The position numbers and the translations under genes are program-made. This document shows, piece after piece, positions 4,648-29,766 of a stretch of 32,749 bases of DNA. Below the pieces are notes generated by a model. The model was not told where the DNA came from, searched no databases, and was given only the letters and a program-made list of their open reading frames with translations. Numbering within the stretch: position 1 is the stretch's first letter; the number at the start of each line of letters is the position of its first letter. Source of the DNA: Kangiella sp. (GTDB lineage: Bacteria; Pseudomonadota; Gammaproteobacteria; Enterobacterales; Kangiellaceae); NCBI RefSeq assembly GCF_014762745.1, contig NZ_JABURJ010000134.1:1-32749 (forward strand), in the 5' to 3' direction.

Positions 4648-4898
4648 ATTCAGGCTTGCTCCAATACCCCCTTTTGATTGAGCTGAGTAGTAGCCAAGAC
4701 ATAGCAATTCAAAACAGGACGTTTTGAATAGTAAAATTCGGGCCAGGGATGGAACGTATTTTACGGTGCGTTAAGTGGCTTGGCGGATACGAAGGAAGTA
4801 GAGCGAAGCGAAACCTCAATCACGGGGTGGTCTTCTTTTGGTTACTTTTCTTGACCACGCAAGAAAAGTAACTCGCTGAGTAGCGAAAAAAGGGGGTA
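4648..4898 (+). repeat. Dispersed structured element, copy A
   Basis: The least decayed copy in the window. Near-terminal inverted repeats TACCCCCTTTT (4665-4675) and AAAAGGGGGTA (4888-4898) bound it; similarity to copy C reaches left to about 4648. Inside, in order: a hairpin with 9-base arms (4707-4715 and 4721-4729) and loop AGGAC; a long imperfect hairpin (4732-4763) with loop AGGGAT; the block GTGCGTTAAGTGGC (4767-4780); CGGGGTGGTCTTCTTTT (4823-4839); a perfect 13-pair hairpin (GTTACTTTTCTTG at 4841-4853, loop ACCACG, other arm 4860-4872); and a small hairpin TCGCT/AGCGA. It sits between thiS and thiG inside the thiamin operon. Short open frames across it are not genes. Confidence 0.85.
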
Positions 4899-4956
4899 TA
4901 GGCCTCGGATATGGTCGAAAGCGTTCAATTTAAGATAACCAAAAAGAGAATCGAAT

Positions 4957-5730
4957 ATGCTAAAAATTGCTGGAAAAGAAATTAACAGTAGATTATTTGT
5001 CGGGACGGCATTATATCCGTCACCGCAGATTATGCTGGATTCTATAAAAGCTTCTGGCGCTAACATAGTGACGGTATCAGTGAGACGTCAGGGGCTGGGT
5101 GGTGAGAATTTCTGGAAGCAGTTACAGCAGTTGGATTGTCACTGGTTGCCGAATACGGCGGGTTGCCATTCGGCAAAGGAAGCGATAACGACCGCTGAAA
5201 TGGCGCGGGAAGTTTTCCAGACCAACTGGGTCAAGCTGGAAGTGATTGGTGACGAGTACAATCTTCAGCCGGATCCATTTCAATTAGTTGAAGCGGCAAA
5301 AGAATTGGTCAAGCGTGGTTTTGAAGTGTTCCCGTACTGCACTGATGATTTGGTGTTGTGCCAGCGTTTATTAGACGCAGGCTGTAATATTTTAATGCCC
5401 TGGGGCGCGCCGATTGGGACGGGTCGAGGTTTAACGGATCCTTATGCGTTGCAGACTTTGCGTAAGCGCTTACCTGATGTGCCGATGGTGATTGATGCTG
5501 GATTAGGATTACCTTCTCATGCGGCGCAGGCAATGGAAATGGGCTTTGATGCAGTGCTGTTAAATACGGCGATTGCACAGGCGGAAAATCCGGTGCTAAT
5601 GGCGACAGCATTTAAAGACGCGGTCAACGCTGGTCGAAATGCATATCAGGCTGGAGCCATGCCGCAACGCGATCTGGCACAACCAAGCACGCCTGTTCTG
5701 GGAACGCCTTTCTGGCAACAAGAGTCATGA
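4957..5730 (+). CDS. thiG: Thiazole synthase ThiG
   Basis: A TIM-barrel enzyme of 257 residues that joins 1-deoxyxylulose phosphate, the glycine imine and ThiS thiocarboxylate into the thiazole phosphate of thiamin. The Schiff-base lysine lies in WVKLEVIGD (Lys93), and the phosphate-binding and barrel elements [42 protein letters not shown] and [12 protein letters not shown] are all present. Length is normal. The ribosome site is weak (AGAGAA six bases before the ATG). It lies 664 bases from thiS, unusual for an operon partner, and overlaps thiDE by 4 bases at its end (ATGA). Confidence 0.96.
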
Positions 5731-7202
5731 AGAAAAAAACAAAAGCTGTAATCTGGACTTATGCAGGACTGGATAACTCCGGCCTTGCAGGTCAGTTAGC
5801 CGATGTTAGAACTATAGAAGCGTTGGGTGGACATGGCTGCTGTATCTCAACTGCCCATACTGCGCAGAACAGTCAGAGAGTTATAGCGGTCAACCCTGCT
5901 GCAAAACAGCAGTTGCAGACTCAGTTAATGGCTTTATGCGAAATGGGCCAGCCGGATGCAATTAAAGTTGGCTTGCTTCCAAGCATGGATGCAGTAACAG
6001 TTCTGAAAGACTTTCTTGTGAAGAATAAGAAACCAATCCCACTTGTATTAGATCCGGTTATCACAAGCTCTTCTGGTACAGAGTTTATGCCAAAGGAAGT
6101 GCTTGCTCGGTTAAAAACTCTATTGCCTTATATCACTGTGCTTACGCCTAATATTGATGAACTTAAAATATTAAGCGGCGAACCGATTGAGTCAATAGAC
6201 GATGTTGAGCGTCAGGCCAAGCAGCTGTTGGTATCAGGTGTTGGAGCGGTCTTAGTCAAGGGAGGACATTTGCATACCGAGAAAGCAGCAGATTTCTTTG
6301 TTAGTTACAATCATCAGTTCTGGCTGCATAGCGATAGAAAAAATTGCGAGGACACTCGCGGCACAGGATGTGTTCTCTCTTCTGCCATAGCAACTGCACT
6401 GGCGTTGGAGTATTCAATTGAAGATGCAGTAGTGATTGGCAAAATGGCACTCAATCAGGGGCTAAGAAACAGTTATTCGGTGAAAAATGACAAAGGCCCA
6501 TTATGCGTACAGTCATGGCCGGCTGATGAAGAAGATATGCCGTATTTATCCAAATCGTATGCAATGAATGACTATCAATTTCCTTCGTTAAAGGGACAGG
6601 TGCTAGGTCTGTATCCGGTTGTGGACCGAGCGGATTGGCTTAAGCGTTTATTACCATTGGGAATTTCAACGATTCAATTGCGAGTAAAAAATCTCAAAGA
6701 TGAAGAGCTGGAAAATGAAATTGTAGAAGCGGTTAAGATTGCCCAGCAATATGATGCAAAACTGTTTATTAATGACTATTGGCAGCTGGCCATAAAACAC
6801 AATGCTTATGGCGTGCATCTGGGGCAGGAAGATCTGGATACTGCAGATCTGGCAGCAATCAGTAAAGCAGGTTTGCACCTTGGTGTCAGCACTCACTGCT
6901 TTTATGAAGTGGCGCGCGCCCATGCAATTGCCCCAAGTTATCTGGCCTGTGGTCCGGTTTATCATACAGACAGTAAGCAAATGCCGTGGATTCCACATGG
7001 GGTTGATAACTTGAACTATTGGAATGAGCTGATGCAAAGTTATCCGTGGGTTGCCATTGGGGGTATCAATGCTGATAGAATTGCCGAAGTAGCACAAACT
7101 GGAGTGTCAGGCATCGCCATGATTTCAGCCATTACAGGTGCACTTGAGCCGGAGCAGACAGCTACCAGTATGATGCAGTTAATTGAACAACACAGGCCTT
7201 AA
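5727..7202 (+). CDS. thiDE: ThiD-ThiE fusion: HMP(-P) kinase and thiamin-phosphate synthase
   Basis: One protein of 491 residues with two enzymes. Residues 1 to about 265 are the ThiD kinase fold that phosphorylates hydroxymethylpyrimidine phosphate; the anion hole [16 protein letters not shown] with Cys215 is intact. From about residue 290 to the end is ThiE ([47 protein letters not shown]), which joins the two halves to thiamin phosphate. The first glycine-rich loop of the kinase, usually close to GSDSSGGAGIQAD, reads [12 protein letters not shown], so substrate handling in the ThiD half may be altered. The start overlaps the thiG stop (ATGA), so the two are translationally coupled. Domain fusion of these enzymes is known in other bacteria. 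Confidence 0.94.
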
Positions 7203-7204
7203 AC

Positions 7205-7555
7205 ATGAGTCATTTTGAGTGGCAGGAATCCGATGAAGTTCAGCTGATTAGTCCAGATGAATTACGGCAATGGGCGAGTCAGCAAGATGCCCCTTTGCTG
7301 ATTGATGTCCGAAATACAGATGAGCATCAAGTCGATAAAGCGCTGCTTGCTTTTGCCAAAGCAGAGACATTAAATAATATTCCGATAACTGAATTTGGTA
7401 GTCATATTAATCAGCTCGATCCGGATCAGCCAATAGTGACCATTTGTCAGGTAGGGCAGAAAAGTTTTAATGCAGCCAGCCTGCTCATACAAGCAGATTT
7501 TTCCTGTGTCTACAGCTTGCATGGTGGCATCGAAGCCCTGAAGCGGAGCGACTAG
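7205..7555 (+). CDS. Rhodanese-domain protein at the end of the thiamin operon
   Basis: A 116-residue single rhodanese domain beginning 2 bases after thiDE. Signs of the fold are LISPDELRQW, LLIDVRNTDEHQVDKA and the active loop ICQVGQKSFNAASLL with Cys81 as the likely persulfide carrier. In many bacteria such a domain is joined to ThiF/MoeB-type enzymes or to ThiI. Here a free copy in the operon, with no thiF nearby, suggests it passes sulfur toward ThiS; that is inference from position. Stop codon is TAG. After it, 7566-7584 contains an inverted repeat CTGTA-N9-TACAG of unknown use. Confidence 0.85.
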   Translation: MSHFEWQESDEVQLISPDELRQWASQQDAPLLIDVRNTDEHQVDKALLAFAKAETLNNIPITEFGSHINQLDPDQPIVTICQVGQKSFNAASLLIQADFSCVYSLHGGIEALKRSD

Positions 7556-7604
7556 CAATAATACCCTGTAACATTCTGCTACAGTGTTGTATCTTGGTAC
7601 GCGA

Positions 7605-7610
7605 TATAAT
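7605..7610 (+). promoter_or_regulatory. Candidate -10 box for the PH-domain gene pair
   Basis: A perfect TATAAT 35 bases before the ATG at 7646. No good -35 hexamer sits at 16-18 bases; TTGTAT at 7587-7592 is too near. An activator-dependent promoter is possible. Confidence 0.4.
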
Positions 7611-7645
7611 TCTACTCATCAAGTAAGCTTTGGGGAAAACCGCTT

Positions 7646-8200
7646 ATGAGCAACGAACAAGAACAACATCAAGACTCAACAAATAATCCGAGCAGCACTC
7701 GACAACAGGTTCAGGATGCAAGTCTTATCGAACAGTTGCCGGATAATAAACAACGCCTTCACCCAGACTCAATTAAAGTATCACGAATCAGTACCGCTTT
7801 GGTTTGTTTGATCATTGCAATCGTTCCAAGTGCTATTTCTATATTTAGTGGTAGCTTCTGGCTGATGTATATTGGTCTGGCGGTTGCAGCGATTATCTTT
7901 ACCATTGGTTTTATCTGGGCTAAAAAATCATACGACTACACATGGTACTGGCTGGCTGACGAAGGTCTTTATATTCAAAGTGGCGTCTGGTGGCGTAAAA
8001 AGACGCTGATACCCTTTAACCGTGTGCAACACACCGATGTGGCGCAAGGTCCATTGGAACGCAAGTATAAATTGGGCAAGCTGGTGACGCACACCGCCGG
8101 TACGCGTGATGCATCGGTTTCACTGGATGGCATCTTGTTAGATACTGCTCATGATTTGCGTTCCGTGTTGCAGGAAGAAGGCGAAAGCGATGCAGTCTGA
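7646..8200 (+). CDS. Membrane protein with bacterial PH domain (YdbS type)
   Basis: A 184-residue inner-membrane protein. The first 45 residues are polar and Gln/Ser-rich. Two adjoining hydrophobic helices follow (about 49-69 and 72-92, from TALVCLIIAIVPSAI to IIFTIGFIWA), then one bPH2 domain from about residue 100 (WLADEGLYIQSGVWWRKKTLIPFNRVQHTDVAQGPLERKYKLGKL, given here only as the family's usual elements in sequence). GGGGA about 10 bases upstream is the ribosome site. The next gene begins inside its end, and the pair matches the YdbS/YdbT arrangement seen in many bacteria. The family has been linked to envelope stress in Bacillus; the role here is not known. Confidence 0.85.
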   Translation: MSNEQEQHQDSTNNPSSTRQQVQDASLIEQLPDNKQRLHPDSIKVSRISTALVCLIIAIVPSAISIFSGSFWLMYIGLAVAAIIFTIGFIWAKKSYDYTWYWLADEGLYIQSGVWWRKKTLIPFNRVQHTDVAQGPLERKYKLGKLVTHTAGTRDASVSLDGILLDTAHDLRSVLQEEGESDAV

Positions 8201-9677
8201 AGTACAGGCCAATCGGCTACACAAAATTTCCCCGTTATTTATTCTGTTTGAAAATATTAAGAAACTGATATTCCCTATCGTTCTTGCATTGTTCAGTACA
8301 CGCGGCAGCTCATGGGAATTATTTGCTTTAGGATTTGCCTTAATCATCAGTTTAGGCGCCATTGTCCAATACCGCTTTTATCGTTATTGGCTAGAAGGTG
8401 ATAAAATTCGAGTGCAGGAAGGGATCTTCTTTCGTAATGTTCGTCAGGTTCCTTATAAAAAAATTCAAAACCTCAATTTAGTGCAGTCACCATTACACCG
8501 GCTATTTGGTGTGGTTAAAGTACAGCTTGAGTCAGCATCAGGCGGTAAGCCGGAAGCGGTCATCAATGTGATTGATATGCAGGCAGTTAATGCGCTTAAG
8601 CGTAAAATTAATGATGAAGAAGAACTGCAGGAAGAAGAGGCTGCAAAACCAAAAGACAGTATCTTGAGCTTATCATTCGGCGAGATTGTTCGTTACGGCA
8701 TGATCACCAATCGCGGTATTGTTGCGGTGGCGATCTTTTTTGGTTTTGTAATGCAGTTCATGGATAACCAGATTGAGCGTCTGGTTACCAACTATATCAG
8801 TCAGTTCACGCAATGGATTGATGGCTTGGTCAGCAGTATCGAATTTGAAAATGGCTGGCTTTATTTCACACTGTTAACCATCATTGGCGTCATTGCCGCA
8901 ATCATTGCCTTGTGGTTACTGTCGATTGCCATGGCGCTACTGAAGTTTCATGGCTTCGTACTGATAAAAACTAAAGATAAACTGCAGGCAACCTTGGGAT
9001 TGCTGACGCGCCTGCAGGCGACCATTCCCATGACCCGTATCCAGTCATTAACCATCCATGAGTCACTGCTCCATCGCTGGTTTAAGCGAATTGGCATCAC
9101 CATAGAAACAGCCGGTGGCGTCAATAATGAACAGCAGGGTGTCAGCATGAAGCAGGTGGTTCCAGTTGCACCCAACAATATGCGTGAGCAGTTGCTTAAA
9201 GAAATACAGAGCGATGTGGATTGGGATGCCATTGAATGGCAGCCGATTAATCAGAGAGGCTGGCGCCGCGTGCTCAAAGTCATGGTCTTGATCGGCCTGG
9301 TCATAACTGCGCCATTGGCATTATGGAGCCTGTATGCCTATCCGGTTGGCTTTGTTTTGTGGGTTGTGTATAGCGTCTATTACTCAAAAGCCTATGTTAA
9401 AGGCGCGGGCTACCATATCAATGATCAGCTGGTAGCTTTTAAAGATGGTGTCATTTTTACCAAGTACACCTTCGTCCGACTACCGAAAACCCAAACCATT
9501 GCGGTGAAGGAAAGCCCATTCGATCGTCGCCATGGCATGGCTAGCCTTGAAGTGGATACTGCCGGTGCCATGGTTGGTGCTCACCATATCAATATTCCCT
9601 ATCTCGACCTTGGTGTTGCGATTGCTATCAAGGACCGCATCAGCGACAACATCAAAGGCACCAGATTTAACTGGTAA
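8190..9677 (+). CDS. Membrane protein with three bacterial PH domains (YdbT type)
   Basis: A 495-residue partner of the preceding protein. Hydrophobic helix pairs near residues 25-58, 175-250 and 370-405 alternate with three bPH2 domains, each opening with a pattern such as YRYWLEGDKIRVQEG, and then TRIQSLTIHESLLHRWF and VRLPKTQTIAVKESPFDRR. The frame is open back to 8151, but the ATG at 8190 is chosen because it overlaps the upstream stop by 11 bases and begins a polar N-terminus normal for the family; the extra 13 residues are Cys/Lys-rich and look non-native. Co-translated with the upstream gene. Probably a membrane complex; no enzymatic residues are evident. Confidence 0.85.
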   Translation: MQSEVQANRLHKISPLFILFENIKKLIFPIVLALFSTRGSSWELFALGFALIISLGAIVQYRFYRYWLEGDKIRVQEGIFFRNVRQVPYKKIQNLNLVQSPLHRLFGVVKVQLESASGGKPEAVINVIDMQAVNALKRKINDEEELQEEEAAKPKDSILSLSFGEIVRYGMITNRGIVAVAIFFGFVMQFMDNQIERLVTNYISQFTQWIDGLVSSIEFENGWLYFTLLTIIGVIAAIIALWLLSIAMALLKFHGFVLIKTKDKLQATLGLLTRLQATIPMTRIQSLTIHESLLHRWFKRIGITIETAGGVNNEQQGVSMKQVVPVAPNNMREQLLKEIQSDVDWDAIEWQPINQRGWRRVLKVMVLIGLVITAPLALWSLYAYPVGFVLWVVYSVYYSKAYVKGAGYHINDQLVAFKDGVIFTKYTFVRLPKTQTIAVKESPFDRRHGMASLEVDTAGAMVGAHHINIPYLDLGVAIAIKDRISDNIKGTRFNW

Positions 9678-9684
9678 TTAGCTG

Positions 9685-9721
9685 CTCCAATAGTAAGTAG
9701 GCTATTGGAGTAACTCTTTTT
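9685..9721 (+). terminator. Terminator between convergent genes
   Basis: CTCCAATAG (9685-9693) pairs with CTATTGGAG (9702-9710) over an 8-base loop, and CTCTTTTT follows after three bases. It lies between the PH-domain gene and the convergent hypothetical gene and could work on the plus strand. Confidence 0.65.
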
Positions 9722-9740
9722 GCCCATCAACTCTTGTTTA

Positions 9741-10760
9741 TCAATAGTGGCGGTTATAAAAAAGCCTGGCTGGGACTGGAGAATCAAGACTGCCAATCAG
9801 TTCGAACCTGTGTGAACTGGGCAGCAAAGGGTTAAGCTCATCCATTAATTGCCAGCAGTTCTCTGCTTTATCAATAATGGGCAGGAGCATATTACGGGTT
9901 TCCAGTTCATCCACATACCAAGCAAGGGTTTCTTGCAGATCAGCAAGAGGCGACTTCTTGTGGATAATCAGTGTGCCATCCTGGTAGTTGTTCCACTGTT
10001 TGGCGGTGACCTGACCAGAGTCTAAAAATGTGTCAATCACTAAAGTATCCAGCTCAATGCTGAATTGATAGTTTTGTTGTTCGATAGCTGCCTCAATCTG
10101 CTCATCGCTATAGTGAGCGCCTTGTTTGGCCGCCATATTTTTAACTTCTTCGGCAGTCATGCCCCGATCAAGTCGCCAGTCCATTTCTTTGGCGTATGCA
10201 TCCTCAAAAAACGAGACAAAATCACCTGGAAAAGCAGTACGAATACCGGCAGTTCTTTGCTCGAGTAAATGCAGGGCTTCAGCAAGTGTGGTTTCGGCAG
10301 GCAAAAAATGCTTTTCTTCGCCTGGCGGATGATCAAGACCATCGCCAGCGGGAGCTGTACTGTAGGTAACATTGAGTTTATCTTTGCTGGTGGCAACAAC
10401 GTCGAAAAAACAGCCTATAATATGCGAATAAATCACAATGGTTATATCTCTGCTGGCATTCGTTGCCGCATAAATAGAAGTCTGATCAATCTCGGGGATC
10501 AGGTAGTAACCAATGGTGTTGAAGTCTAACTTTTGGCATTGGCTGACCAGCTCATGAAACTCAGCATCATCGATGTCCTGAGCAGCAATAGATTCCAGGT
10601 GGAGGCGGGCTGGTTGGGCAAGTTGACCATGTTCCAATGCCTTGGCGAGGTGTTTACCAAGCTTGATGCGTAAATAGAACTTGAACCCATAGTAGGCAAG
10701 GATGAGTAAGACAATGATGCTGACAACAGCAATTCCTATTATCTGAAAGAAAGTTGACAC
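9741..10760 (-). CDS. Hypothetical membrane-anchored protein
   Basis: A 339-residue protein I do not recognise. One strong transmembrane helix spans about residues 7-30 (IIGIAVVSIIVLLILAYYG), followed by FKFYLRIKLGKHLAKAL, so positive charge after the helix places the large C-terminal part in the cytoplasm. The soluble part is acidic and helical, with a conserved-looking block around DWRLDRGMTAEEVKNMAAKQ and no catalytic motif I can name. It starts at a GTG with an excellent ribosome site (AAGGAG, 6-base gap). A TTGACA box lies upstream on the same strand. Codon use matches the neighbours, so no sign of recent transfer. Confidence 0.75.
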   Translation of the reverse strand: MSTFFQIIGIAVVSIIVLLILAYYGFKFYLRIKLGKHLAKALEHGQLAQPARLHLESIAAQDIDDAEFHELVSQCQKLDFNTIGYYLIPEIDQTSIYAATNASRDITIVIYSHIIGCFFDVVATSKDKLNVTYSTAPAGDGLDHPPGEEKHFLPAETTLAEALHLLEQRTAGIRTAFPGDFVSFFEDAYAKEMDWRLDRGMTAEEVKNMAAKQGAHYSDEQIEAAIEQQNYQFSIELDTLVIDTFLDSGQVTAKQWNNYQDGTLIIHKKSPLADLQETLAWYVDELETRNMLLPIIDKAENCWQLMDELNPLLPSSHRFELIGSLDSPVPARLFYNRHY

Positions 10761-10801
10761 CTTTAGCTCCTTATTGAGGCTTCTAATTATTGTTCCATTG
10801 T

Positions 10802-10830
10802 AAACTAGTGAAATGGTTCGGGTGTGTCAA
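10802..10830 (-). promoter_or_regulatory. Candidate promoter for the hypothetical membrane protein
   Basis: On the minus strand a perfect TTGACA (10830-10825) is followed after 17 bases by TAGTTT (10807-10802). A better -10 look-alike, TACAAT (10802-10797), is 22 bases away. It faces the GTG start at 10760. Confidence 0.45.
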
Positions 10831-10903
10831 TAAATTAAGGGCTGAATAGAGTAAATTTCAGGCATAGATGTTAGAATGGCGTCAATTTTATCGGTTTCAA
10901 ATG

Positions 10904-10920
10904 ACCTGCCATAAGCAGGT
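10904..10920 (+). other. Small hairpin in the kbl leader
   Basis: ACCTGC (10904-10909) and GCAGGT (10915-10920) form a 6-pair stem with a 5-base loop, 24 bases before the kbl start. TAGAAT at 10872-10877 could be a -10 box. Regulatory role unproven. Confidence 0.35.
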
Positions 10921-10944
10921 GTCCAATATTCAAAAGGTTATTTC

Positions 10945-12141
10945 ATGAATCAAGAATTTCTCAAGCATATCCAGCAGAACATTGACGAAGTTAAAGAAGC
11001 AGGCCTCTATAAAAAAGAAAGGGTCATCGACTCGCAACAGGCAGCGGATATTCATGTCACAACAGGCGAGAATGTTCTGAACTTCTGCGCCAATAACTAT
11101 CTCGGTTTGGCTAACAGCCCTGAGTTGATTAAAGCTGGTCAGGAAGCGCTGGACCATTATGGTTACGGCATGGCTTCGGTGCGCTTCATCTGCGGTACTC
11201 AGGATGTGCACAAAAAGCTGGAAAAACGCATCAGCGATTTCCTGGGTATGGAAGATACCATTCTTTATTCTTCATGTTTTGATGCCAATGGTGGTTTGTT
11301 TGAAACATTGCTGGATGCCGAAGATGCCGTGATTTCTGATGCACTGAATCATGCTTCTATTATTGATGGTGTACGTTTGTGTAAAGCTAAACGTTACCGT
11401 TATGCCAATAACGATATGGCTGATCTGGAAAAACAACTTCAGCAGGCGGATGCCGATGGCGCCCGTTATAAGCTGATTGTTACCGATGGTGTCTTTTCAA
11501 TGGACGGCATTATCGCTGATCTTAAGTCGGTGTGTGATCTGGCCGATAAATACAACGCGTTGGTTATGGTTGATGATTCACATGCGGTTGGCTTTATCGG
11601 TGAGAAAGGCAAAGGCTCGCATGAATTCTGCGATGTGATGGGTCGAGTGGATATTATTACTGGTACTCTAGGTAAAGCACTTGGTGGTGCATCTGGCGGT
11701 TACACCTCAGCGAGTAAAGAAGTAGTTGAATGGTTACGTCAACGTTCGCGTCCGTATCTGTTCTCTAATACCTTGGCGCCGGTGATTGCCGCGGCCAGCT
11801 TAAAAGTATTAGACATGTTGGAAAATGGTGACGAGCTACGTCAAAAGCTGCGTCATAACAGCGAATACTTCCGCGAGAAAATGACTTCGTTAGGCTTTGA
11901 GTTAGTGCCTGGTGAGCATCCGATTATTCCGGTGATGTTGGGTGATGCTTCTTTGGCCAGCAAGTTTGCAGACATGATGCTTAAAGAGGGTATTTATGTT
12001 ATCGGCTTCTCCTTCCCGGTAGTACCAAAAGGTCAGGCGCGAATTCGAACGCAAATGTCAGCCGCGCATAATATTGAACACATTGATCGCGCTATTGCCG
12101 CTTTTGAAAAAGTCGGCAAAGAATTGGGCGTTATAAAATAA
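10945..12141 (+). CDS. kbl: 2-amino-3-ketobutyrate CoA ligase (glycine C-acetyltransferase)
   Basis: A PLP enzyme of 398 residues, the same length as in E. coli. It splits 2-amino-3-ketobutyrate with CoA into glycine and acetyl-CoA, the second step of threonine breakdown. The PLP lysine is Lys244 in [15 protein letters not shown]. Other class elements are [46 protein letters not shown] and [24 protein letters not shown] precedes the ATG. Its product partner tdh follows 127 bases downstream; the gap is mostly a palindromic repeat. Confidence 0.97.
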
Positions 12142-12146
12142 ACCTA

Positions 12147-12218
12147 TCATTGCGAGCCTGCAAGGCAGGCGTGGCAATCTGGTGAAAGAGATTGCCGCGG
12201 CCAAAGGCCTCGCAATGA
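12147..12218 (+). repeat. CATTGCGAG-type palindromic repeat with cloverleaf fold
   Basis: The 72-base unit closes on itself with TCATTGCGAG (12147-12156) and CTCGCAATGA (12209-12218). Inside are three more stems: GCCTG/CAGGC, GGCAATCT/AGATTGCC, and GGCC-AAA-GGCC. The result resembles a four-way cloverleaf. Sequences with the same termini are common between genes of many proteobacteria. Here it lies between kbl and tdh and ends before GTGTTTTTC, so it may partly stop transcription or protect the upstream message. Confidence 0.85.
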
Positions 12219-12268
12219 CGTGCGTGTTTTTCAGTTACGTATTCAACAGGTAAACAATAGAGAAACCT

Positions 12269-13294: not shown

Positions 13295-13309
13295 TAGGAA
13301 TAATTTAGA

Positions 13310-14357: not shown

Positions 14358-14367
14358 GAGAAAGGAT

Positions 14368-14676: not shown

Positions 14677-14692
14677 CTGTTTCCTGTCTTTA

Positions 14693-14926: not shown

Positions 14927-14986
14927 AAAAACCTCCTTGGTTAAGAGTTATTAAGCCATGAAGATAAGCCAAATGCAATTGAGATT

Positions 14987-15014
14987 GTAGGGACAAGTCA
15001 TGACTTGTCCGTAC
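14987..15014 (+). repeat. Perfect palindrome, GTAGGGACAAGTC type
   Basis: GGACAAGTCA (14991-15000) is followed at once by its reverse complement TGACTTGTCC (15001-15010), flanked by GTAG and GTAC. The first of three unlike palindromes packed into the 316-base gap between the DUF2007 gene and ahpF. Confidence 0.7.
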
Positions 15015-19217: not shown

Positions 19218-19287
19218 TATTTATTTTATCTCTGGTAAGAGTTAATGCTTTGTCACGGATATATGAATAAGGTCAATTTAAGATTTC

Positions 19288-19611
19288 GCCCCTCGGCGAC
19301 CTTCTTTTTCTTGTGTGCGCAAGAAAAAGAAGCGTAAGTTAATGCATATAGCTGATATACCATTAAACAAGTAAGAAGGTTTCATAGACCACTAGAGCTA
19401 GTGGCTAGCACCAAATAACCGATTAAAAGTTAGCCGAAGTATTCAAAATTATAGTGTAAATTGGGTAAGGATGGCCCAATTTAGCAAATTCGAAACATGG
19501 ATGTTTCGTTTTGCGGCACGTTAAGTGATTTTGAATAGTGAGGGAAGCGCAAAGCGCCTAACTTTTAGGGCGAGTTTTTTGGTTCGTTTTTTGCTCGTCC
19601 AAAAAATGAAC
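19288..19611 (+). repeat. Diverged relatives of the dispersed structured element (copy B region)
   Basis: The 431-base gap between ubiC and ubiA holds two pieces. The first (19288-19332) has a small CGCC/GGCG hairpin and a perfect 13-pair hairpin, CTTCTTTTTCTTG (19301-19313) with 19320-19332, loop TGTGCG. The second (19457-19611) has a hairpin TAAATTGGG/CCCAATTTA with AAGGATG in the loop (19457-19483), CGAAAC-ATGGAT-GTTTCG (19491-19508), the block ACGTTAAGTG (19518-19527), GCGCAAAGCGC and a 12-pair hairpin with a six-base loop (19582-19611). The order of parts matches copies A, C and D, though the sequence has drifted far. No gene seen in the gap. Confidence 0.65.
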
Positions 19612-19648
19612 ATAAGAAAAAATTTATATAAAGAGTTGCAACAAGGGG

Positions 19649-23023: not shown

Positions 23024-23048
23024 AAAAATCTCAATTCGTGGTAAACAG

Positions 23049-24275
23049 TTAGAGCAGCAGCTCAACAGGGTGTGGGTGGCTTAAGAAGTCGCGCGGACTG
23101 GCAGTAAAGCCATAAGCGCCGGACTGAAAAACAACCACCCAGTCACCAATTTCTGCCTTCGGGAGTTCCATCTTGTTGGCAAGGATATCGAGCGGTGTAC
23201 ATAAAGGACCGACTATGTTCACCAGCTCGGTGTCAGATTGTTGCATACGATTAGCAATTGCAACAGGATAATTTTTGCGGATGACCTGGCCAAAATTGCC
23301 GGAAGCCGCTAGATGATGATGCAGGCCGCCATTGCAGATTAGATAGGTCTGGTCACGTGAAACTTTTTTATCGGTAATCTGGCAAACATAGATACCAGCA
23401 TTGCCGACCAGATAACGACCGAGTTCTAAAATCAGTTCACAATCAGTGAGCAACTGTTGATGGTCTGCGATCAACTGGGTGAGGTTGTCGGCAATAGGTT
23501 CTAGATCAAGCAGTTGATCACCGGGAAAATAAGGAATGCCAAAGCCGCCGCCAATATTGAGGTGTTTCAGTGAGAAACCGTAGTCCTGCTGCAAGCGTTC
23601 GACCAATGCAAAAATACTGTTATGTGCGGTGATGATAGAACCAGAATTCAGGTTTTGAGAGCCGGTGAAAATATGCAGGCCCATGAACTTCAGCCGGGGA
23701 TGTTGTAGCAGTTCAAAAACCTGATCAAGCTGTTCGACGTCAATGCCAAACTGTTGTGGCCCGCCGCCCATCTTCATGCCTGACGATTTCAATTCAAAGT
23801 CAGGGTTCAGGCGTAATGCGACGTTCGCATAGCGGTCATGGCTATCGGTAACCTTGATAATTCTTTCCAGCTCGGTAATCGATTCGACATTAATGGTGAT
23901 GCCGGAAAAGATCGCCATGGTCAGTTCCTGTTCCGATTTACCGGGGCCAGCAAAGCTAATTTTAGTTGGTGCAATGCCGGTGGAAAGGGCGGTGTGTAAT
24001 TCTTTGCCCGAAGCAACATCAAGGCCATCGACCAGCTGCGATAAATGGTTAACCACCGCCGGCATCGGATTGGCTTTAATGGCGTAATGCAAACTGACCT
24101 TTGGGAAAAAGCTGCGCAGATTGTCGACGTTTTGCCTGATTACCGAGCGATCGTAAAGATAACAAGGGGTCTGTCCTGCAATAGCCACAGCTTCATCAAT
24201 CGTATGGCCGCCAATGACCAGCTGGCCATCACGGATGGAAAATTGATTCATGTCAGCATGTGTTTTGGGACTCAT
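23049..24275 (-). CDS. PLP-dependent decarboxylase, exosortase-A-associated type
   Basis: A fold-type III decarboxylase of 408 residues, related to diaminopimelate and ornithine decarboxylases. The PLP lysine is Lys67 in HYAIKANPMPAV; the glycine-rich phosphate loop is NIGGGFGIPYFPG; GPLCTPLDIL gives the active-site cysteine and aspartate; the stretch ELKSSGMKMGGGPQQFGID is typical of the subgroup found with exosortase A systems. Substrate unknown. It is not ordinary lysA: it lies 29 bases after an AMP-forming ligase of the same exosortase-linked subgroup and 25 bases before plsB. AAGGT lies 8 bases before the ATG. The subgroup name comes from memory of family sequences. Confidence 0.88.
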   Translation of the reverse strand: MSPKTHADMNQFSIRDGQLVIGGHTIDEAVAIAGQTPCYLYDRSVIRQNVDNLRSFFPKVSLHYAIKANPMPAVVNHLSQLVDGLDVASGKELHTALSTGIAPTKISFAGPGKSEQELTMAIFSGITINVESITELERIIKVTDSHDRYANVALRLNPDFELKSSGMKMGGGPQQFGIDVEQLDQVFELLQHPRLKFMGLHIFTGSQNLNSGSIITAHNSIFALVERLQQDYGFSLKHLNIGGGFGIPYFPGDQLLDLEPIADNLTQLIADHQQLLTDCELILELGRYLVGNAGIYVCQITDKKVSRDQTYLICNGGLHHHLAASGNFGQVIRKNYPVAIANRMQQSDTELVNIVGPLCTPLDILANKMELPKAEIGDWVVVFQSGAYGFTASPRDFLSHPHPVELLL

Positions 24276-24304
24276 TGGTTCAGACCTTATTCTATCGGAC
24301 TTAT

Positions 24305-25882
24305 TTAATGGTAAAGTTTAACGGCAAAGTCAGTTTGTAATTGCTGGCGATCAATTTTGCCGTTGGGATTGCGCGGCAGCTGCTCAACAAACTGTATGTA
24401 CTTGGGTTGCATATAATTGGGCAGTTGCTGTTGGCAATAGCGTTTCACATCCCTCTCGGTGAGCGCCTTATCTGTTTTGATTAACAGCATGATTGCCTGC
24501 CCCAGCTCTTCATCAGCCAGGCCAATTGCAACGACTTCGGCAACGCCGTCCAGCTGATAGAGGCTTTCCTCCAGTTCAGCGGGGCTGATGCGATAACCTG
24601 AACATTTTATCATATCGTCCTTGCGACCGATAAAATAGAGCAGGCCGTCTTTATCGCGACGCACCGTATCGCCGGACCAGACCGCCAGTTCAGGCAGGTA
24701 ATTTGCTGTTTCGCCAATCGGCTTAAAGCGTTCAGCGGTCTTTTCTGGCGCATTCCAGTAACCCAGACTGACATGGACACCACGATGCACCAGCTCGCCC
24801 GGCTCATCCACATCGCATTCAGTGCCGTCCGGTCTTAAAACCAGCACTTGTGCATTGGGAATCGCCTTGCCAATAGAGTCGGGGTGGGAATCGACCAGTG
24901 CTGGCTCAAGGTAGGTGGAGCGAAAGGCCTCGGTCAGGCCATACATCAGATAAGGCTCGGCATCAGGTAACTGAGCTCGTAATTGCTGTAATGTCGCTTG
25001 TGGCATGACGCCGCCACTGTTAGTGAAATAGCGTAAACAGTGTGCTTCATCGGGCCATTCCAGTTTTGCCAGTTGAATCCACAGCGGGGGCACGGCGGCC
25101 AGTCCTGTGATTTGATGCTTGGCAACTTGACGAATCACATCGCGTGGCAGCAGATATTCCATCAGAACCACAGTGGCACCAACTAACAGCCCCGTTGTGA
25201 TCTGGCTCAGGCCATAGTCAAAACTTAGCGGCAGAACGGCAAGGATTTTGTCTTCAGAAGAATTATGTAAGTACTGACTGACGCTCTGTGCCCCGGCAAT
25301 CAAGTTGCGGTGTGACAGGCAGACGCCTTTTGGCTGGCCGGTCGAGCCTGAAGTATAAAGAATGGCGGCCAGATCCTGATCGATTACCGAATGAGCTGGA
25401 GCAGTGAATTGCTGTGGTGACAGCTCGGGCCAGCGATGCTGCTTTACGGACAATGGGTGAAGATTATCTGTCAGCTCATCGACAAGCAAAAGATGCTCAA
25501 GATCAGAGCACTGCTGTAAAGCTTCAGCCGACAGCTTGGCTCTTTGCTGGCTGGTGATAAGCAACCGGACATTGCAATCGCGCAGAATATAAGCCACCTG
25601 AGCAGGCTTCAGTACCGGATTAACCGGCACAAATACCAGTCCGGCGCGGCTGGCAGCAAGGATGCTAATAATCGTTTCAACCTGCTTGGGCAGATAGACA
25701 GCAATCCGCTCACCTTTAGCGAGCCCCATGCTGAGAAGGGTCTGTGCGAGCTCATTAATGGCATGCTCAAGTTCGCTATAAGTCAGCTGACGTTTGTTAT
25801 CGTCAATCGCGACTTTGTCCGCGAATTTTTGCTGGCTTGCAGTTACAATGGCATCAAGCTGGCAATACATGGTGTTACTCAT
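24305..25882 (-). CDS. AMP-forming acyl-CoA ligase, exosortase-A-associated type
   Basis: An adenylate-forming enzyme of 525 residues expected to activate a carboxylic acid as acyl-AMP and pass it to a thiol. Motif A3 is LYTSGSTGQPKG (about residue 175), A5 MYGLTEAF, A7 SGDTVRRDKDG, A8 GRKDDMIKCSGYRISPAE and A10 NPNGKIDR with the catalytic lysine. The N-terminal run IAVYLPKQVETIISILAA with ILRDCNVRLLITS matches the exosortase-A-linked ligases. First gene of the minus-strand run ligase-decarboxylase-plsB. No acyl carrier protein or exosortase is visible. No clear ribosome site; ATG at 25870 is a possible alternative start. Confidence 0.87.
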   Translation of the reverse strand: MSNTMYCQLDAIVTASQQKFADKVAIDDNKRQLTYSELEHAINELAQTLLSMGLAKGERIAVYLPKQVETIISILAASRAGLVFVPVNPVLKPAQVAYILRDCNVRLLITSQQRAKLSAEALQQCSDLEHLLLVDELTDNLHPLSVKQHRWPELSPQQFTAPAHSVIDQDLAAILYTSGSTGQPKGVCLSHRNLIAGAQSVSQYLHNSSEDKILAVLPLSFDYGLSQITTGLLVGATVVLMEYLLPRDVIRQVAKHQITGLAAVPPLWIQLAKLEWPDEAHCLRYFTNSGGVMPQATLQQLRAQLPDAEPYLMYGLTEAFRSTYLEPALVDSHPDSIGKAIPNAQVLVLRPDGTECDVDEPGELVHRGVHVSLGYWNAPEKTAERFKPIGETANYLPELAVWSGDTVRRDKDGLLYFIGRKDDMIKCSGYRISPAELEESLYQLDGVAEVVAIGLADEELGQAIMLLIKTDKALTERDVKRYCQQQLPNYMQPKYIQFVEQLPRNPNGKIDRQQLQTDFAVKLYH

Positions 25883-26028
25883 TGGAAAGAATGCGGCTAT
25901 TGTAGCTTTTTCAATGAATTACGTCAGCAATTGACGTGCAGCTATGTCACCATCAGTGCCTACACTACAAAAAGCTCAATCCGTCGTGATTTAAATCGAG
26001 CGAGAAAATACAAAAAGAAAAGGGTTAT

Positions 26029-27156
26029 ATGCGGCTAATCTGGTACATCGTTATTTTATTTATCACCTATGGGTCACTGTACCCCTTTGACTTTACGCTT
26101 AGTGGTGAGCTACCAGAAAACTTTTCCAGCTGGCTTTTCAGTTGGCACCATAGAACCATCCGTAGCGATCTGATTGCCAATATCCTGTTATTTATGCCTT
26201 ATGGCTTTTTTGGCGCCCTGACCATTAAGGAAGAAAACCGTCGCTGGCCGATACTCTGGATTATTCTTACCTTTATTGGTGGCTTGCTGTTTGCGTTGTT
26301 TCTACAGATCCTGCAATTCTATTTACCCTCCAGAATTCCGGAGGCTGCCGATGCGCTGACCAATTCCATCGGCATTTTGATCGGCTTTGCGCTAGCGGGA
26401 TTTACCAACAGCCAAAGAGTACAGCGCTTAATACCAAGAGGGATGCGCTTCCAGTTAACGCCAGCATTGCTGGTACTGGTTTTATGGCTGGCCTGGCAAT
26501 TTTTTCCTTATATCCCGGTTTTTGAAGGCAAGCAGTTTGGCGATGGTCTGAGCCATATCGTGCGAAGTGGCTGGTCGCTGGACTTGTGGCTGGAAAGAGT
26601 GCTGTTCTGGATGGTGTTTTATTATGTTCTTGAGCGAGTGGTGGCTAAAAAATACAGTATGACGGTGATCATAGGCATCACCTTATTTGTGCTGATCATT
26701 AAACTGGCCATGTACCGCAGTCAGCTCGGCTGGAGCGAAATCAGTGCTGTGCCATTAGCGATATTGCTGCATGCCTATCTGGGGCATGGCGTGAAGGTCG
26801 CATTAATCAGCATTGGCGCAGCCACGCTGTTTATATGGCAAAACCTGCTTCCCTGGCAGTGGCAAACAGCCATCAACAGCTTTGAGTGGATGCCTTTTGA
26901 TAACTTCATGACCGGAAGCACCTGGAATAATCTCAGTGCCTTACTGCGAGAATCCCTGCTACTGGCCGCATTTGGCTACTTCCTCGGCAAATGGTTATCC
27001 AGTTACAGAACCGCAGGCACTGTGTTGACGGTTTTCGTGGTTGCTGTAACTGCAATACAATTCTTCATCGCCGGCAAGCAGCCCGACAGCACCTCGATTG
27101 TAATGGCGCTGGTATTGGCCATCTTGTTCCAGAGGCTGGCAAAGATAGCACCTTGA
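26029..27156 (+). CDS. VanZ-like polytopic membrane protein
   Basis: A 375-residue inner-membrane protein with about nine hydrophobic helices. Residues 1-120 have the VanZ-like outline: SLYPFDFTL, RSDLIANILLFMPYGFFG and SRIPEAADALTNSIGILIGF, where the paired Asp/Asn signature sits at membrane edges. The C-terminal two thirds form a second membrane region of unknown type (EWMPFDNFMTGSTWN is its longest polar loop). VanZ-like proteins occur in polysaccharide and exosortase gene clusters; here the gene diverges from an exosortase-linked ligase across 146 bases. AAAGGG lies just before the ATG. Confidence 0.8.
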   Translation: MRLIWYIVILFITYGSLYPFDFTLSGELPENFSSWLFSWHHRTIRSDLIANILLFMPYGFFGALTIKEENRRWPILWIILTFIGGLLFALFLQILQFYLPSRIPEAADALTNSIGILIGFALAGFTNSQRVQRLIPRGMRFQLTPALLVLVLWLAWQFFPYIPVFEGKQFGDGLSHIVRSGWSLDLWLERVLFWMVFYYVLERVVAKKYSMTVIIGITLFVLIIKLAMYRSQLGWSEISAVPLAILLHAYLGHGVKVALISIGAATLFIWQNLLPWQWQTAINSFEWMPFDNFMTGSTWNNLSALLRESLLLAAFGYFLGKWLSSYRTAGTVLTVFVVAVTAIQFFIAGKQPDSTSIVMALVLAILFQRLAKIAP

Positions 27157-27207
27157 TTTAATGGTGCTTATGAGACTGACTAATGCAAGCAATTAATATC
27201 AAGAGGT

Positions 27208-27631
27208 ATTCGGCTTGCACCAATAAATACCCCTTTTGATTGAGTTGAGTAAGAGCCTAGTCATAGCAATTCAAAACAGGATGTTTTGAATAATAAAATT
27301 CGGGCCAGTGACCGAAGGAATCCCTTTAGGGAGACGGAACGTATTTTATGGTACCCAAGGGGGCAGACCCTGCGTTAAGTGGCTAGGTGAATACGAAAGA
27401 AGTTTCGAGAAGCGAAACCTCAATCACGGGGTGGTCTTCTTTTATGAAGTACATCCTGTACTTCACCCTTCGGGCTAGCTTCGCTATTCAAAATCGTTCC
27501 TGACGATTTTGTGGTTACTTAGAGCAAGACAAATTTGTCTGGAACAAATTCGAACAGCGGAGTGAAGCGACGCTGGCTTTAGTGGAGTAAAAGGATGTAC
27601 TCCGTAAAAGTAACTCGCTGAGAGGCGAAAA
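27208..27631 (+). repeat. Dispersed structured element, copy C, enlarged by nested palindromes
   Basis: Homologous to copy A but about 420 bases. The first hairpin (27269-27291) has the same 9-base arms with loop AGGAT. The second keeps its outer arms, but its tip carries an extra block around TCCCTTTAGGGA. Another extra block, ACCCAAGGGGGCAGACCC, precedes TGCGTTAAGTGGC. CGGGGTGGTCTTCTTTT (27427-27443) is identical to A. Then come TGAAGTAC-ATCCT-GTACTTCA (27445-27465), CAAAATCGT/ACGATTTTG (27489-27511), AATTTGT-CTGGA-ACAAATT (27532-27550), and GGAGTA/TACTCC, before AAGTAACTCGCTGAG closes the long hairpin. It fills most of the 657-base gap after the VanZ-like gene. Confidence 0.85.
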
Positions 27632-27644
27632 ATTTCCAGAAGGA

Positions 27645-27746
27645 ATGACTGAATTAAGAATCATTGAAGTTTTAGGAGGCAGGAACCAGTGCTCTCCAAC
27701 ATGTATAGTAAAAATTAATAATCAAAGGGTAGTGTTAGATTCATAA
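27645..27746 (+). CDS. Possible 33-residue small protein
   Basis: An ATG-initiated frame of 33 codons encodes a peptide beginning MTELRIIEVLGGRNQC and ending NNQRVVLDS, with Cys16 and Cys20. AAGG lies almost against the start codon, closer than normal, so initiation is doubtful. It sits directly after copy C and just before a terminator hairpin. The composition looks protein-like, but length and ribosome site do not establish a gene. Confidence 0.2.
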   Translation: MTELRIIEVLGGRNQCSPTCIVKINNQRVVLDS

Positions 27747-27785
27747 TAAAAAACACCTGACCGTGATAGGAACCTGGTCAGGTGT
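27746..27785 (-). terminator. Intrinsic terminator of the hemerythrin gene
   Basis: On the minus strand ACACCTGACC (27785-27776) pairs with GGTCAGGTGT (27762-27753), followed by a T run. It ends the hemerythrin gene 28 bases after its stop. Confidence 0.85.
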
Positions 27786-27813
27786 AAAAAGGGAACTAAT
27801 GTTTAATGAAAAA

Positions 27814-28350
27814 CTAGTCAGGCTGATACAGGGTATAAAGCTCATTTTCTTCTAATGACACTCGGTGGGTTAGAACCTTACCCACAGTTTCAAAATCCTT
27901 CTTAAAAGACTCTTTCTGTTCAGCGGTAATAATGGGTTTCGAATAGGTTTTGCAGAATCGGATAACCGCTTGTGCAATATCATTCATTTCATTTCGGAAG
28001 TCTTTAACCAGATCCATGCTGGAAGAATCATCAGACAGCTTTTGCTCAAGGTAAACATAAAACTTCACGTTTTCTTTGAGTAAGTGTGCTTGAAAATCAC
28101 GTTTGAACTGGGTTACGAGATCGGCAAGCTTCTGTCGGTCATTAGCTTCAAAGCCTTCCGTCCAGATACGGCCATAAAGTGCCACGAGATGATTATGATC
28201 CCCTTTCAGGTTATCAATCAAATGGGGATCATAACTGATACCGTAATGATTACGCTTCTTGGTGAAATCAACTTCTTGGATTGGGTTTGGCTCTCGAGTA
28301 TCGACAGGCTCTGGCCGATCACGAAAAAAGTTCTTAATAAAACCAAACAT
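27814..28350 (-). CDS. Hemerythrin-domain protein
   Basis: A 178-residue soluble protein whose central and C-terminal parts form a four-helix hemerythrin-like bundle, expected to bind a diiron site that senses or handles oxygen or nitric oxide. Likely ligands are His52 or His54 (LKGDHNHLVALY), His89 and Glu93 (AHLLKENVKFYVYLE), His162 and Glu167 (LTHRVSLEENELYTLY). The first 40 residues are polar and outside the domain. GAGGAG lies 7 bases before the ATG. A perfect FNR-type box is centred about 82 bases upstream of the start codon, so low-oxygen or NO-linked control is likely. Its own terminator follows. Confidence 0.88.
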   Translation of the reverse strand: MFGFIKNFFRDRPEPVDTREPNPIQEVDFTKKRNHYGISYDPHLIDNLKGDHNHLVALYGRIWTEGFEANDRQKLADLVTQFKRDFQAHLLKENVKFYVYLEQKLSDDSSSMDLVKDFRNEMNDIAQAVIRFCKTYSKPIITAEQKESFKKDFETVGKVLTHRVSLEENELYTLYQPD

Positions 28351-28425
28351 GGTGCGACTCCTCAGCTATATGTGAAAGTAGGAACAAAATATTATCTTTT
28401 TAATCTCTTTAGTAGACACTAATTA

Positions 28426-28439
28426 TTGATATATATCAA
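28426..28439. promoter_or_regulatory. Perfect FNR/ANR/DNR-type box
   Basis: TTGATATATATCAA matches the consensus TTGAT-N4-ATCAA exactly. On the minus strand a TTAAAA or GATAAT -10 box (28403-28398 or 28396-28391) places a start site about 41-48 bases from its centre, a normal activation position for the hemerythrin gene. Confidence 0.75.
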
Positions 28440-28471
28440 TAGCTTAGAATGCAAAAATGACCACTAGATCA

Positions 28472-28674
28472 ATGCATAAATGCATCAAGAAAAATAGTAT
28501 TTTTTATGCATGATTTATAACAATTTTGTTAAAAAGACATAGAAAAGTGATAACCATTTCATAATCCCTACAAATAACCCTTTGCTACATATGGTTATTT
28601 TGCCAAGTGTATGATTATTTAGGGGGGCATAGAAAAACTGTAATAAAAATAAGCAGTTAATGCATATCTGCATT
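28472..28674. promoter_or_regulatory. Cluster of ATGCAT motifs between hemerythrin and DUF3050 genes
   Basis: Four ATGCAT hexamers occur at 28472, 28480, 28506 and 28660, the last in a dyad AATGCA-TATC-TGCATT (28659-28674). NsrR, the nitric-oxide repressor, binds half sites containing ATGCAT, but the spacing here does not match its full paired site. The rest of the 384-base gap is AT-rich and holds no gene. Confidence 0.35.
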
Positions 28675-28734
28675 TTTCGAATGTCAGATAAGGTAAAAAA
28701 TTTTACAACTATAGCTGAATAAAGGAAGGAAATT

Positions 28735-29478
28735 ATGATTGAACAAAAACTCTCACCATTAAAGCAGGCCTTATCCCACCATAAAGCCTATGGATTACTT
28801 AATTAGACGAACAATATTCGTCCCTATATGGAATATCACGTCTACGCAGTTTGGGACTTTATGACTCTGTTGAAGGCCTTGCAGCGCCGATTGACCTGTG
28901 TGGATATTCCGTGGCGTGAATCCAGTTATCCGACTGAGGTAGTGCGCTTCATCAATGAAATTGTGATCGGTGAAGAAAGCGATCTTGACCAGAATGGGCA
29001 TCCAATAAGCCACTACTCTCTTTACTTAGAAGCCATGCAGGAGGTAGGTGCTGATGTTGCGAAAGTGCAGCAGTTTGTTGCCTCATTGGATACCAGTATT
29101 ATTCCGGAAGGTGCTCGTGAATTTGTTGAGTACAACTTGAAGCTGGCTAAAGAGGGAACTGATGAAGAAGTGGCGGCTGCCTTTTTATATGGGCGGGAAA
29201 AATTGATCCCAGAAATGTTTACCGGCATCAAGGAAGCGTTAATCAGAGAGAACGCTGACTGCCCAACCTTAATCTATTACCTTGAAAGGCATATTGAGTT
29301 AGACGGCGATGAGCACGGCCCGCTGGCCGAAAAATGCCTGCAAGCCATCTGCGGAGACGACAAAGACAAATGGCAACGTGCATTAACCGTCGGCAAAGAG
29401 TGCTTACAGATGCGCGACGCCCTTTGGAACCAGGTCGAAAAAGCCCTGGTACAAAAATCAGGAATAAAAGCTGCGTGA
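28735..29478 (+). pseudogene. DUF3050 (heme-oxygenase-like fold) gene with an in-frame amber codon
   Basis: A full-length reading starts at the ATG at 28735 behind a strong ribosome site (AAGGAAGG, 5-base gap) and runs MIEQKLSPLKQALSHHKAY then GLLN, where a TAG at 28804-28806 stops it at codon 24. The same frame continues to 29478 with TNNIRPYMEYHVYAVWDF, a core DUF3050 motif, then VDIPWRESSYPTEVVRF, GHPISHYSLYLEAM and YYLERHIELDGDEHGPLA. A start at 28828 would cut into the conserved motif, so the upstream part belongs to the gene. Right after the stop is a hairpin GACGAA-CAATA-TTCGTC (28806-28822). Possible readings are a nonsense mutation, readthrough, or a sequence error. DUF3050 is, as I recall, in the heme-oxygenase-like clan; function unknown. 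Confidence 0.8.
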
Positions 29479-29535
29479 TGCAATTAGTGAATAGTCTATT
29501 GGCACGTAGAAATAGACTGATGGAATGTATGTTTA

Positions 29536-29766
29536 GCACCAACACCCCCTTATATTGAGCTAAGACACGTACAAAATATAGCAATCAAAATCTTGGATGA
29601 TTTTGATAAGAATTTTCAGCACAGGGATGTGATGTAAATTCTGGTGCGTTAAGTATTTTGGGAGTGGCGCAGGGAGTCACGCGAAGCGTGGCCTCAATAT
29701 CGGGGTGGTCTTCTTTTGACTACTTTTCTTGACCACGCAAGAAAAGTAGTTCGCTGAGTAGCGAAA
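29536..29766 (+). repeat. Dispersed structured element, copy D
   Basis: Begins GCACCAACACCCCCT like copy C. First hairpin ATCAAAATC (29584-29592), loop TTGGAT, other arm 29599-29607. Second hairpin AGAATTT (29609-29615) with 29636-29642, its tip CAC-AGGGAT-GTG. Then GGTGCGTTAAGT (29643-29654), GCGAAGCGTGGCCTCAAT, and CGGGGTGGTCTTCTTTT (29701-29717), identical to A and C. The long hairpin ACTACTTTTCTTG (29719-29731) with 29738-29750 keeps the loop ACCACG and 13 pairs although two pairs differ from copy A. The right-hand GGGGGTA end is lost. It lies in the 455-base gap before rpe; TACAAT at 29900-29905 may be the rpe -10 box. Confidence 0.85.

Follow-up and report, generated by a model that had tools for sequence, protein, structure and literature searches.

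Why should a bacterial genome carry one structured, non-coding sequence again and again between its genes, and does such a sequence act as DNA or as RNA? The question is raised by a contig of Kangiella sp. (NZ_JABURJ010000134.1; all of its 32,749 nucleotides (nt) are called the window below), on which three clear copies of a dispersed element, named A, C and D, are found. The explanation favoured here, with about even confidence and from comparison of sequences, is that of a non-autonomous dispersed element acting as RNA, which would have a pseudoknot-triplex at its end and exchangeable hairpins on its 5′ side, and would provide scattered CsrA sites in hosts that have CsrA.

A sequence-only reading of the window had described a dispersed, structured, intergenic element, and this description is confirmed. 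The 17-base block CGGGGTGGTCTTCTTTT is present without mismatch at 4823, 27427 and 29701, and no further site appears in the window scan when up to three mismatches are allowed (0.05 expected); GCGTTAAGT is likewise exact at 4768, 27372 and 29646 (0.16 expected). The order of blocks is identical in copies A, C and D, all three sit between the longer open reading frames (ORFs) of the window, and no transposase frame is seen in them, just as had been claimed. Copy A was compared by BLAST with the 2.79 Mb host genome (contig C79 of which is the window), and this gave 44 matches, partial ones and several fragments of a single copy among them, with scores computed for 40 of the 58 candidates. Alignment of the copies from this genome delimits copy A, a simple form of about 230 nt, at 4658–4887 on the + strand.

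The 3′ domain and its predicted third strand

What does the second half of the element, which has no Rfam match in the window, look like? The aligned copies present, in this order, a TwoAYGGAY part closed by an outer stem P1, the segment GUGGUC, the linker UUCUUUU, a pyrimidine hairpin with the loop GACCAC, and a terminal hairpin P7. In copy A, with all parts on the + strand, covariation assigns GUGGUC (4827–4832) and the hairpin loop GACCAC (4853–4858) to the two strands of a pseudoknot stem S1. Alignment and covariation place the pyrimidine arm of the hairpin stem S2 at 4841–4852 and its purine arm at 4861–4872, alignment places P7 (UCGC/GCGA) at 4873–4886, and the linker L1 (4833–4839) is proposed as a third strand from its parallel match to the purine arm. 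The 17-base block and the hairpin with the pyrimidine arm had been listed as separate parts; both are present, but together they are predicted to form one pseudoknot-triplex.

Variants of GUGGUC and of the loop change together, as in GUGGCC/GGCCAC, UGUC/GACA, CGCC/GGCG, GCUGAC/GUCAGC and others. Among 59 distinct Kangiella domains, kept from 110 rows, the best S1 pairings are of 32 different kinds, some nested, with 3–8 base pairs (bp). In 18 copies of the same spacing, chosen from 51 domains, 98.7% of the S1 and S2 cells are paired as against at most 57% when slid, and the observed values were reached by none of 500 shuffles on three measures and by one of 500 on two; at one S1 pair all four Watson-Crick types are seen. 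S1 reaches at least 4 bp in 82 of 128 rows, compared with 27.5 (maximum 36) when the loops are swapped, and two other copies from the host genome give folding z values of −5.5 and −4.5. As a reading of such comparisons, an H-type pseudoknot with S1 GUGGUC/GACCAC and S2 the pyrimidine/purine hairpin is well supported.

The linker mirrors the sequence of the pyrimidine arm; its match to the purine arm is therefore parallel and tracks the G positions of that arm: TTCTTTT goes with AAGAAAA, TTTCTTTT with AAAGAAAA, TTCTCTTT with AAGAGAAA and TTTTCTTT with AAAAGAAA. In the 59 Kangiella domains, these third-strand runs are 5–9 long with varied C/G positions. Of 143 copies, drawn from many different bacteria, all but two (141) have this match, where shuffling gives a mean of 65 and a maximum of 84; the search pattern restricts the strands to TTYYTTT and AARRAAA, and the shuffled control is restricted alike. 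Comparison thus supports a linker that would run base for base parallel to the purine arm of S2, as for U·A-U and C+·G-C major-groove triples, which are predicted here. A loop 1 placed in the major groove of stem 2 is the geometry of telomerase RNA and of class II riboswitches. With the triplex pseudoknots of telomerase RNA, SAM-II and preQ1-II, the element would share the H-type fold and this position of loop 1, but it is predicted to have 7–8 consecutive pyrimidine triples including C+ positions, and it is an interspersed repeat with no known ligand or template.

The pseudoknot-triplex motif occurs three times in the window, each time on the + strand (A, D and a diverged fourth copy), and in none of 40 shuffles. 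Copy D (29536–29765, +) is a simple form of the AUAUUGAG subtype with its motif at 29711–29751. The fourth copy lies at about 19405–19611 (+) and has the motif at 19575–19611 with the linker TTTTTT. The sequence-only reading had taken 19288–19611 as one far-diverged copy; the region does hold this forward copy, but it is not one unit, since 19286–19334 is a separate, cut-down relic of another copy on the − strand, which has an S2-like hairpin and P7 (TCGC/GCGA end) and lacks the linker and the 5′ strand of the pseudoknot. Copy C (27217–27628, +), in which the window scan found no intact pseudoknot-triplex, is a long form, where inserted GGA-type hairpin modules split L1 from S2. Long forms with such modules, one of them reversed, and with the linker separated from S2 were also seen at L010, L013, L014, L019, L021, L027 and L029, and a similar arrangement occurs in a genome of another family (G039, at L051).

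Hairpins on the 5′ side and the CsrA of the host

Contrary to the view that no RNA family fits, the 5′ half of the element is the Rfam family TwoAYGGAY (RF01731). Copy A (4686–4791, +; 47.1 bits) and copy D (29557–29675; 45.1 bits) both pass the threshold of 43, although the faster default scan gave copy A alone and the two came from the slower one; the fourth copy stays under it with 31.0 bits, and copy C has no match at E up to 1. Over 41 genomes, namely the host and relatives, the family is found at E ≤ 0.001 in 22 and above threshold in 18. In copy A, P1 pairs UGAUUGAG (4675–4682, +) with CUCAAUCA (4815–4822, +) and closes the TwoAYGGAY part, in which sequence and aligned copies place GGA hairpin 1 (4707–4729, +, loop AGGAC) and GGA hairpin 2 (4731–4764, +, loop AGGGAU). 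Two AYGGAY-like loops are present in aligned copies, the first being often AGGAC, one base under the consensus. P1 is Watson-Crick in 583 of 584 cells of 73 genus copies and paired in 100% of cells of 14 copies, and in the 14 copies without inserts P1, P2 and the GGA stems are 98.6% paired as against at most 48% when slid. In a table of PMC2864571, TwoAYGGAY is given as a probable RNA that is not riboswitch-like, and a passage of PMC4333381 proposed it in 2014 to bind CsrA. The element agrees with this family in its pair of hairpins with GGA loops and in the GCGUUAAG-type closing region, whereas the Rfam match stops short of the 3′ pseudoknot-triplex and P7, and the 3′ domain is present in some hosts without recognisable GGA hairpins.

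Do the GGA loops then go with CsrA? A diverse set of copies was taken from matches to the pattern of one subtype (closing stem GTTAC), at least 120 stretches in named genomes that are not a random sample. With 150 nt or more of upstream sequence required, 124 distinct loci were kept out of 133 rows, and no trinucleotide is more frequent in their upstream hairpin loops than GGA (85), the next being GAT (25, overlapping GGA) and GCA (13); two GGA hairpins are detected in 34 loci, one in 17 and none in 73. The top context of these loops is CATGGATG (26), and CA(N)GGA(N)G, which is like the CsrA consensus, fits 79 of the 85. For the hosts, 50 were picked from the pattern loci by element type before their CsrA status was known, each thus having at least one match by construction. 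CsrA is found in 20 of 22 genomes with GGA hairpins versus 6 of 28 without detected ones (Fisher p = 8e-7). The two GGA-type hosts without detected CsrA are metagenome-assembled genomes (MAGs; L131, L200), and the six CsrA hosts with GGA-less elements are Stenotrophomonas, Stenotrophobium, a member of Cardiobacteriaceae, Porticoccus, Aggregatibacter and Actinobacillus. All 21 genomes of the host and 20 relatives have CsrA. Sampled Betaproteobacteria and Bacteroidota have neither GGA hairpins nor CsrA, while Gammaproteobacteria and Selenomonadales mostly have both; the pattern tracks a few clades, and the effective contrasts are therefore few.

What stands in the place of the GGA hairpins elsewhere? 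A TGTYYGAG...CGAGTT stem, presumably kink-turn-like by its consensus, is found in 21 of the 73 GGA-less loci (e.g. L115, L120, L125, L145, L149, L157, L207, L208) but in none of the 51 loci with a detected GGA hairpin (controls 1 and 0 of 124). Of the six hosts that have CsrA but no GGA hairpins, three (L115, L125 and L208) are in this group. Two hairpins with ANGGAN-type loops are a pair that a single CsrA dimer can clamp, and docking of CsrA on the two-hairpin domain is likely from these sequence patterns. The sponge RNAs CsrB, RsmX, RsmY and RsmZ are encoded by one or few regulated small RNA (sRNA) genes and end in an intrinsic terminator. The element would share with them the paired ANGGAN-loop hairpins, by which they titrate CsrA/RsmA according to a passage of PMC4333381, but it consists of many dispersed copies, mostly with two sites each, has a pseudoknot-triplex end, and lacks a conserved promoter or U-run.

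Distribution, spread and conservation

That the parts might not occur together elsewhere had been considered already in the sequence-only reading; they are found together in other genomes. Among the GTTAC-pattern matches listed are Xanthomonadales, Burkholderiales and other Betaproteobacteria, Methylococcales, Psychromonas and Pasteurellaceae, and further Selenomonadales, Clostridia, Desulfobacterota, Bacteroidota, Lentisphaerae and others; these are pattern matches, not each of them proven, S1 having only 3 bp in 25 and 2 bp in 18 of 124 rows. If 398 genomes are sampled evenly from the phylum of the host, the exact pattern is found in 10 including the host, and its reversed control in none; the distribution is therefore patchy. 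Three viral contigs also carry the GTTAC pattern, and a search for plasmid or phage carriage with copy A as the sole query gave one short plasmid match and no phage match. With a looser pattern, 47 of the 50 chosen hosts have at least two matches and three have one (G446, G451, G459), while the reversed pattern has none in 50. The top copy number is 165 matches, in a Selenomonadales genome of 2.5 Mb. The form in this order is minimal, about 100 nt with two GGA hairpins and the pseudoknot hairpin, and ends at GTAAC. Within the genus, the looser pattern is found in 14 of 20 genomes, with 17 matches in the host, and a Kangiella MAG holds a near-identical element. The six genomes without a match are G008, G011, G012, G015, G016 and G017, yet diverged copies were seen in G008 and G015 (L046, L048).

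By what route has the element come to these places? The three window copies have the same orientation, as had been noted, but that does not hold over the genome, where orientation is random. According to a simple ORF finder, 108 Kangiella copies comprise 47 between convergent genes, 26 tandem antisense, 14 tandem sense, 8 divergent and 13 unresolved, and 130 diverse copies comprise 17, 26, 22, 12 and 53, respectively. At the site of copy D, four relatives are without the element. At L006 it is present in G019 and absent from G006 and G013, and at L007 present in G003 and absent from G019 and G006; at L017 a P7-like remnant is kept in the relative G013. At these four sites no exact junction or duplication was found, and insertion is therefore only an indirect conclusion. 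Neither terminal inverted repeats nor target duplication were seen in flank profiles or in the four site comparisons, where junctions are not clean. At the site of copy A, the element of G013 (G013:C1:130345-130575) was seen in the opposite orientation, and those of G006 and G019 in the same one.

Which enzyme might mobilise it? A Y1 transposase as a common mobiliser was dropped, since it is over the cut-off in 38 of the 50 hosts but absent from four of the six with the highest copy numbers, the top two included; these four, G432, G438, G464 and G462, carry 48–165 matches, G432 and G438 being MAGs. A reverse transcriptase was dropped on the same ground, RVT_1 being found in 19 of 50 hosts only, absent from the same four and present in the other two, G448 and G453. 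Head-to-head pairs of elements 0.5–4.5 kb apart were seen in several hosts (L209, at 1060–1101 and 1693–1734; L207, L192, L148 and L167). An autonomous version between such pairs was also considered and dropped: the ORFs of L148, L167 and L192, compared by eye and without a family search, have no common frame. A second, REP-like repeat (REP, repetitive extragenic palindrome), GTCACTGGATnCC...GGnATGAC, lies about 20–27 nt past some Kangiella elements (e.g. L002, L003, L023). The palindrome GTCACTGGATnCC was rejected as a part of the element, being exact in 8 of 111 loci and only to the right of some Kangiella copies.

Are settled copies kept? Of six pairs of orthologous copies, five have 97–98% identity and one has 92%, while the DNA 100–400 nt away is 79–93% and the adjacent 100 nt 54–95% identical, one gap-rich flank (97% of 66 positions) being left out of this range. 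For five of the six pairs, no fetched paralogue is as close as the orthologue, the fetched paralogues not being the full set. The pair L251/L270 fits neither selection nor homogenisation. On the whole, this comparison favours selection on the element over homogenisation.

RNA or DNA, and what the element may be

G-U pairs outnumber A-C mismatches by 34 to 6 in P1, P2, P3a and P3b together and by 24 to 9 in P6 (73 of 110 rows used), and by 30 to 13 in the GGA hairpins of the diverse set. These counts lean, moderately, to an RNA read from the + strand. Two listed sRNAs coincide with parts of the element, although neither match spans the whole: AaHKsRNA22 (RF02902), directly 5′ of the pseudoknot in Aggregatibacter, is a part of it, and Bp1_684 (RF02421) overlaps its 3′ end from the purine arm onward in Burkholderia and Caballeronia. 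The passages on Bp1_684 in PMC3521395 report it as seen by reverse transcription PCR and do not call it a repeat.

Suppose, instead, that the element is mobile DNA, whose hairpins fold in single-stranded DNA and are read by a transposase or recombinase acting in trans, like REP/RAYT or IS200/IS605 ends, with no role as RNA. It is in keeping with this that both strands are nearly equally represented in high-copy hosts, that orientation is random, that site D differs between lineages, that REP-like palindromes lie to the right of some copies, and that P1 and P3a are almost purely Watson-Crick. Like REP repeats, bacterial interspersed mosaic elements and miniature inverted-repeat transposable elements, it is short, non-coding, intergenic and of high copy number, often near 3′ ends; it differs from them in its complex fold with compensatory changes and in the lack of visible terminal inverted repeats or target duplication. 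This lack, the missing Y1 transposase in most of the richest hosts and the excess of G-U over A-C in most, if not all, helix counts make the DNA explanation unlikely, and it leaves the link of the GGA loops with CsrA, an RNA-binding protein, without explanation. Could the element be a 3′ end of messenger RNAs, standing in for intrinsic terminators, with a pseudoknot-triplex that stabilises the transcript upstream of it or terminates it? The convergent context is the commonest one in Kangiella, and element-free relatives carry another hairpin at L006, L007 and D, of which only that at L006 is T-flanked like a typical terminator. This idea is nevertheless quite improbable, with more antisense than sense copies at tandem sites in Kangiella and 86 right flanks in which no U-run is conserved past P7, where single copies have T-runs nearby and no terminator scan was run; a function in sense 3′ untranslated regions was dropped because orientation is random. 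Least probable is a retroelement resembling short interspersed elements, whose RNA would be copied back by a host reverse transcriptase recognising the triplex-pseudoknot: telomerase RNA does have such a pseudoknot-triplex, the copy number is high and no coding part was found, but the scatter of RVT_1 among hosts speaks against it.

An element acting as RNA, the explanation favoured here, has also to face several observations that weigh against it. The G-U to A-C ratio is reversed in P7 (20 to 42) and even in the pseudoknot columns (17 to 18), both poorly aligned, and is just 9 to 7 in the Kangiella GGA hairpins and 6 to 4 in the re-anchored S2. Loop-swapped rows yield 4-bp S1 pairings in about one fifth, and on two of five measures (80 and 398 of 500) the test of P1, P2 and the GGA stems is not above shuffles. 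Orientation is random relative to genes (tandem sense/antisense 14/26 in Kangiella and 22/26 elsewhere) and the left-flank profile of copies has no promoter-like block, so that transcription of all copies is hard to explain. One orthologous pair is no better conserved than its flanks (92% versus 88–93%). The CsrA association is concentrated in few clades, and its p value ignores phylogeny; the six hosts with CsrA but GGA-less elements all belong to the Gammaproteobacteria. Moreover, the hairpin detector has misses, as in L197 of Psychromonas (outside the 50), where it gives 0 and Rfam TwoAYGGAY lies just 5′ of the triplex.

How might such an RNA element work? In many hosts, its 5′ domain offers two ANGGAN-loop hairpins, a pair that could clamp CsrA, and the GGA loops accompany host CsrA, most of the sampled hosts without CsrA retaining the 3′ domain with other 5′ hairpins. 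Once a copy is transcribed, the compact pseudoknot-triplex might shield the 3′ side of the RNA from exonucleases. The copies would jointly be scattered CsrA binding sites, a distributed sponge; they would spread by means of some host or passenger enzyme, and settled ones would be held by purifying selection. The titration role and the mode of spread are what we infer. A wider reading is offered more tentatively, at somewhat less than even confidence: the element may belong to a new class of interspersed RNAs found in several bacterial phyla. It would be a pseudoknot-triplex module able to stand alone, with more than 100 copies in some genomes, and its exchangeable 5′ docking hairpins (the CsrA pair in CsrA hosts, the kink-turn-like stem or others elsewhere) would be fitted to an RNA-binding protein that the host has; TwoAYGGAY, AaHKsRNA22 and Bp1_684 would be fragments of this one class.

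In the window lies also a thiamine pyrophosphate (TPP) riboswitch (976–1104, +; 64.2 bits). As to the element, no published description of the whole was found in the open-licence literature, in which searching by printed sequence is weak; PMC9788540 and PMC9577009 have no bearing on it. Its 5′ half is known as TwoAYGGAY, and what is new lies in the 3′ domain, in the uniting of fragments listed separately, in the number of copies and in the co-occurrence with CsrA. How can an element that is structured but codes for nothing reach about 160 copies in a genome of 2.5 Mb that has no detected Y1 transposase or RVT_1? Kangiella genomes with and without a match to the looser pattern give a within-genus contrast for tracing the mobilising factor. 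If the reading is true, the host-to-host pattern of GGA loops and CsrA would serve as a comparative test of the TwoAYGGAY-CsrA idea of 2014, three separately listed candidate RNAs would merge into one element, and a repeat of quite different bacteria would be a folded RNA whose pyrimidine triple helix is unusually long.

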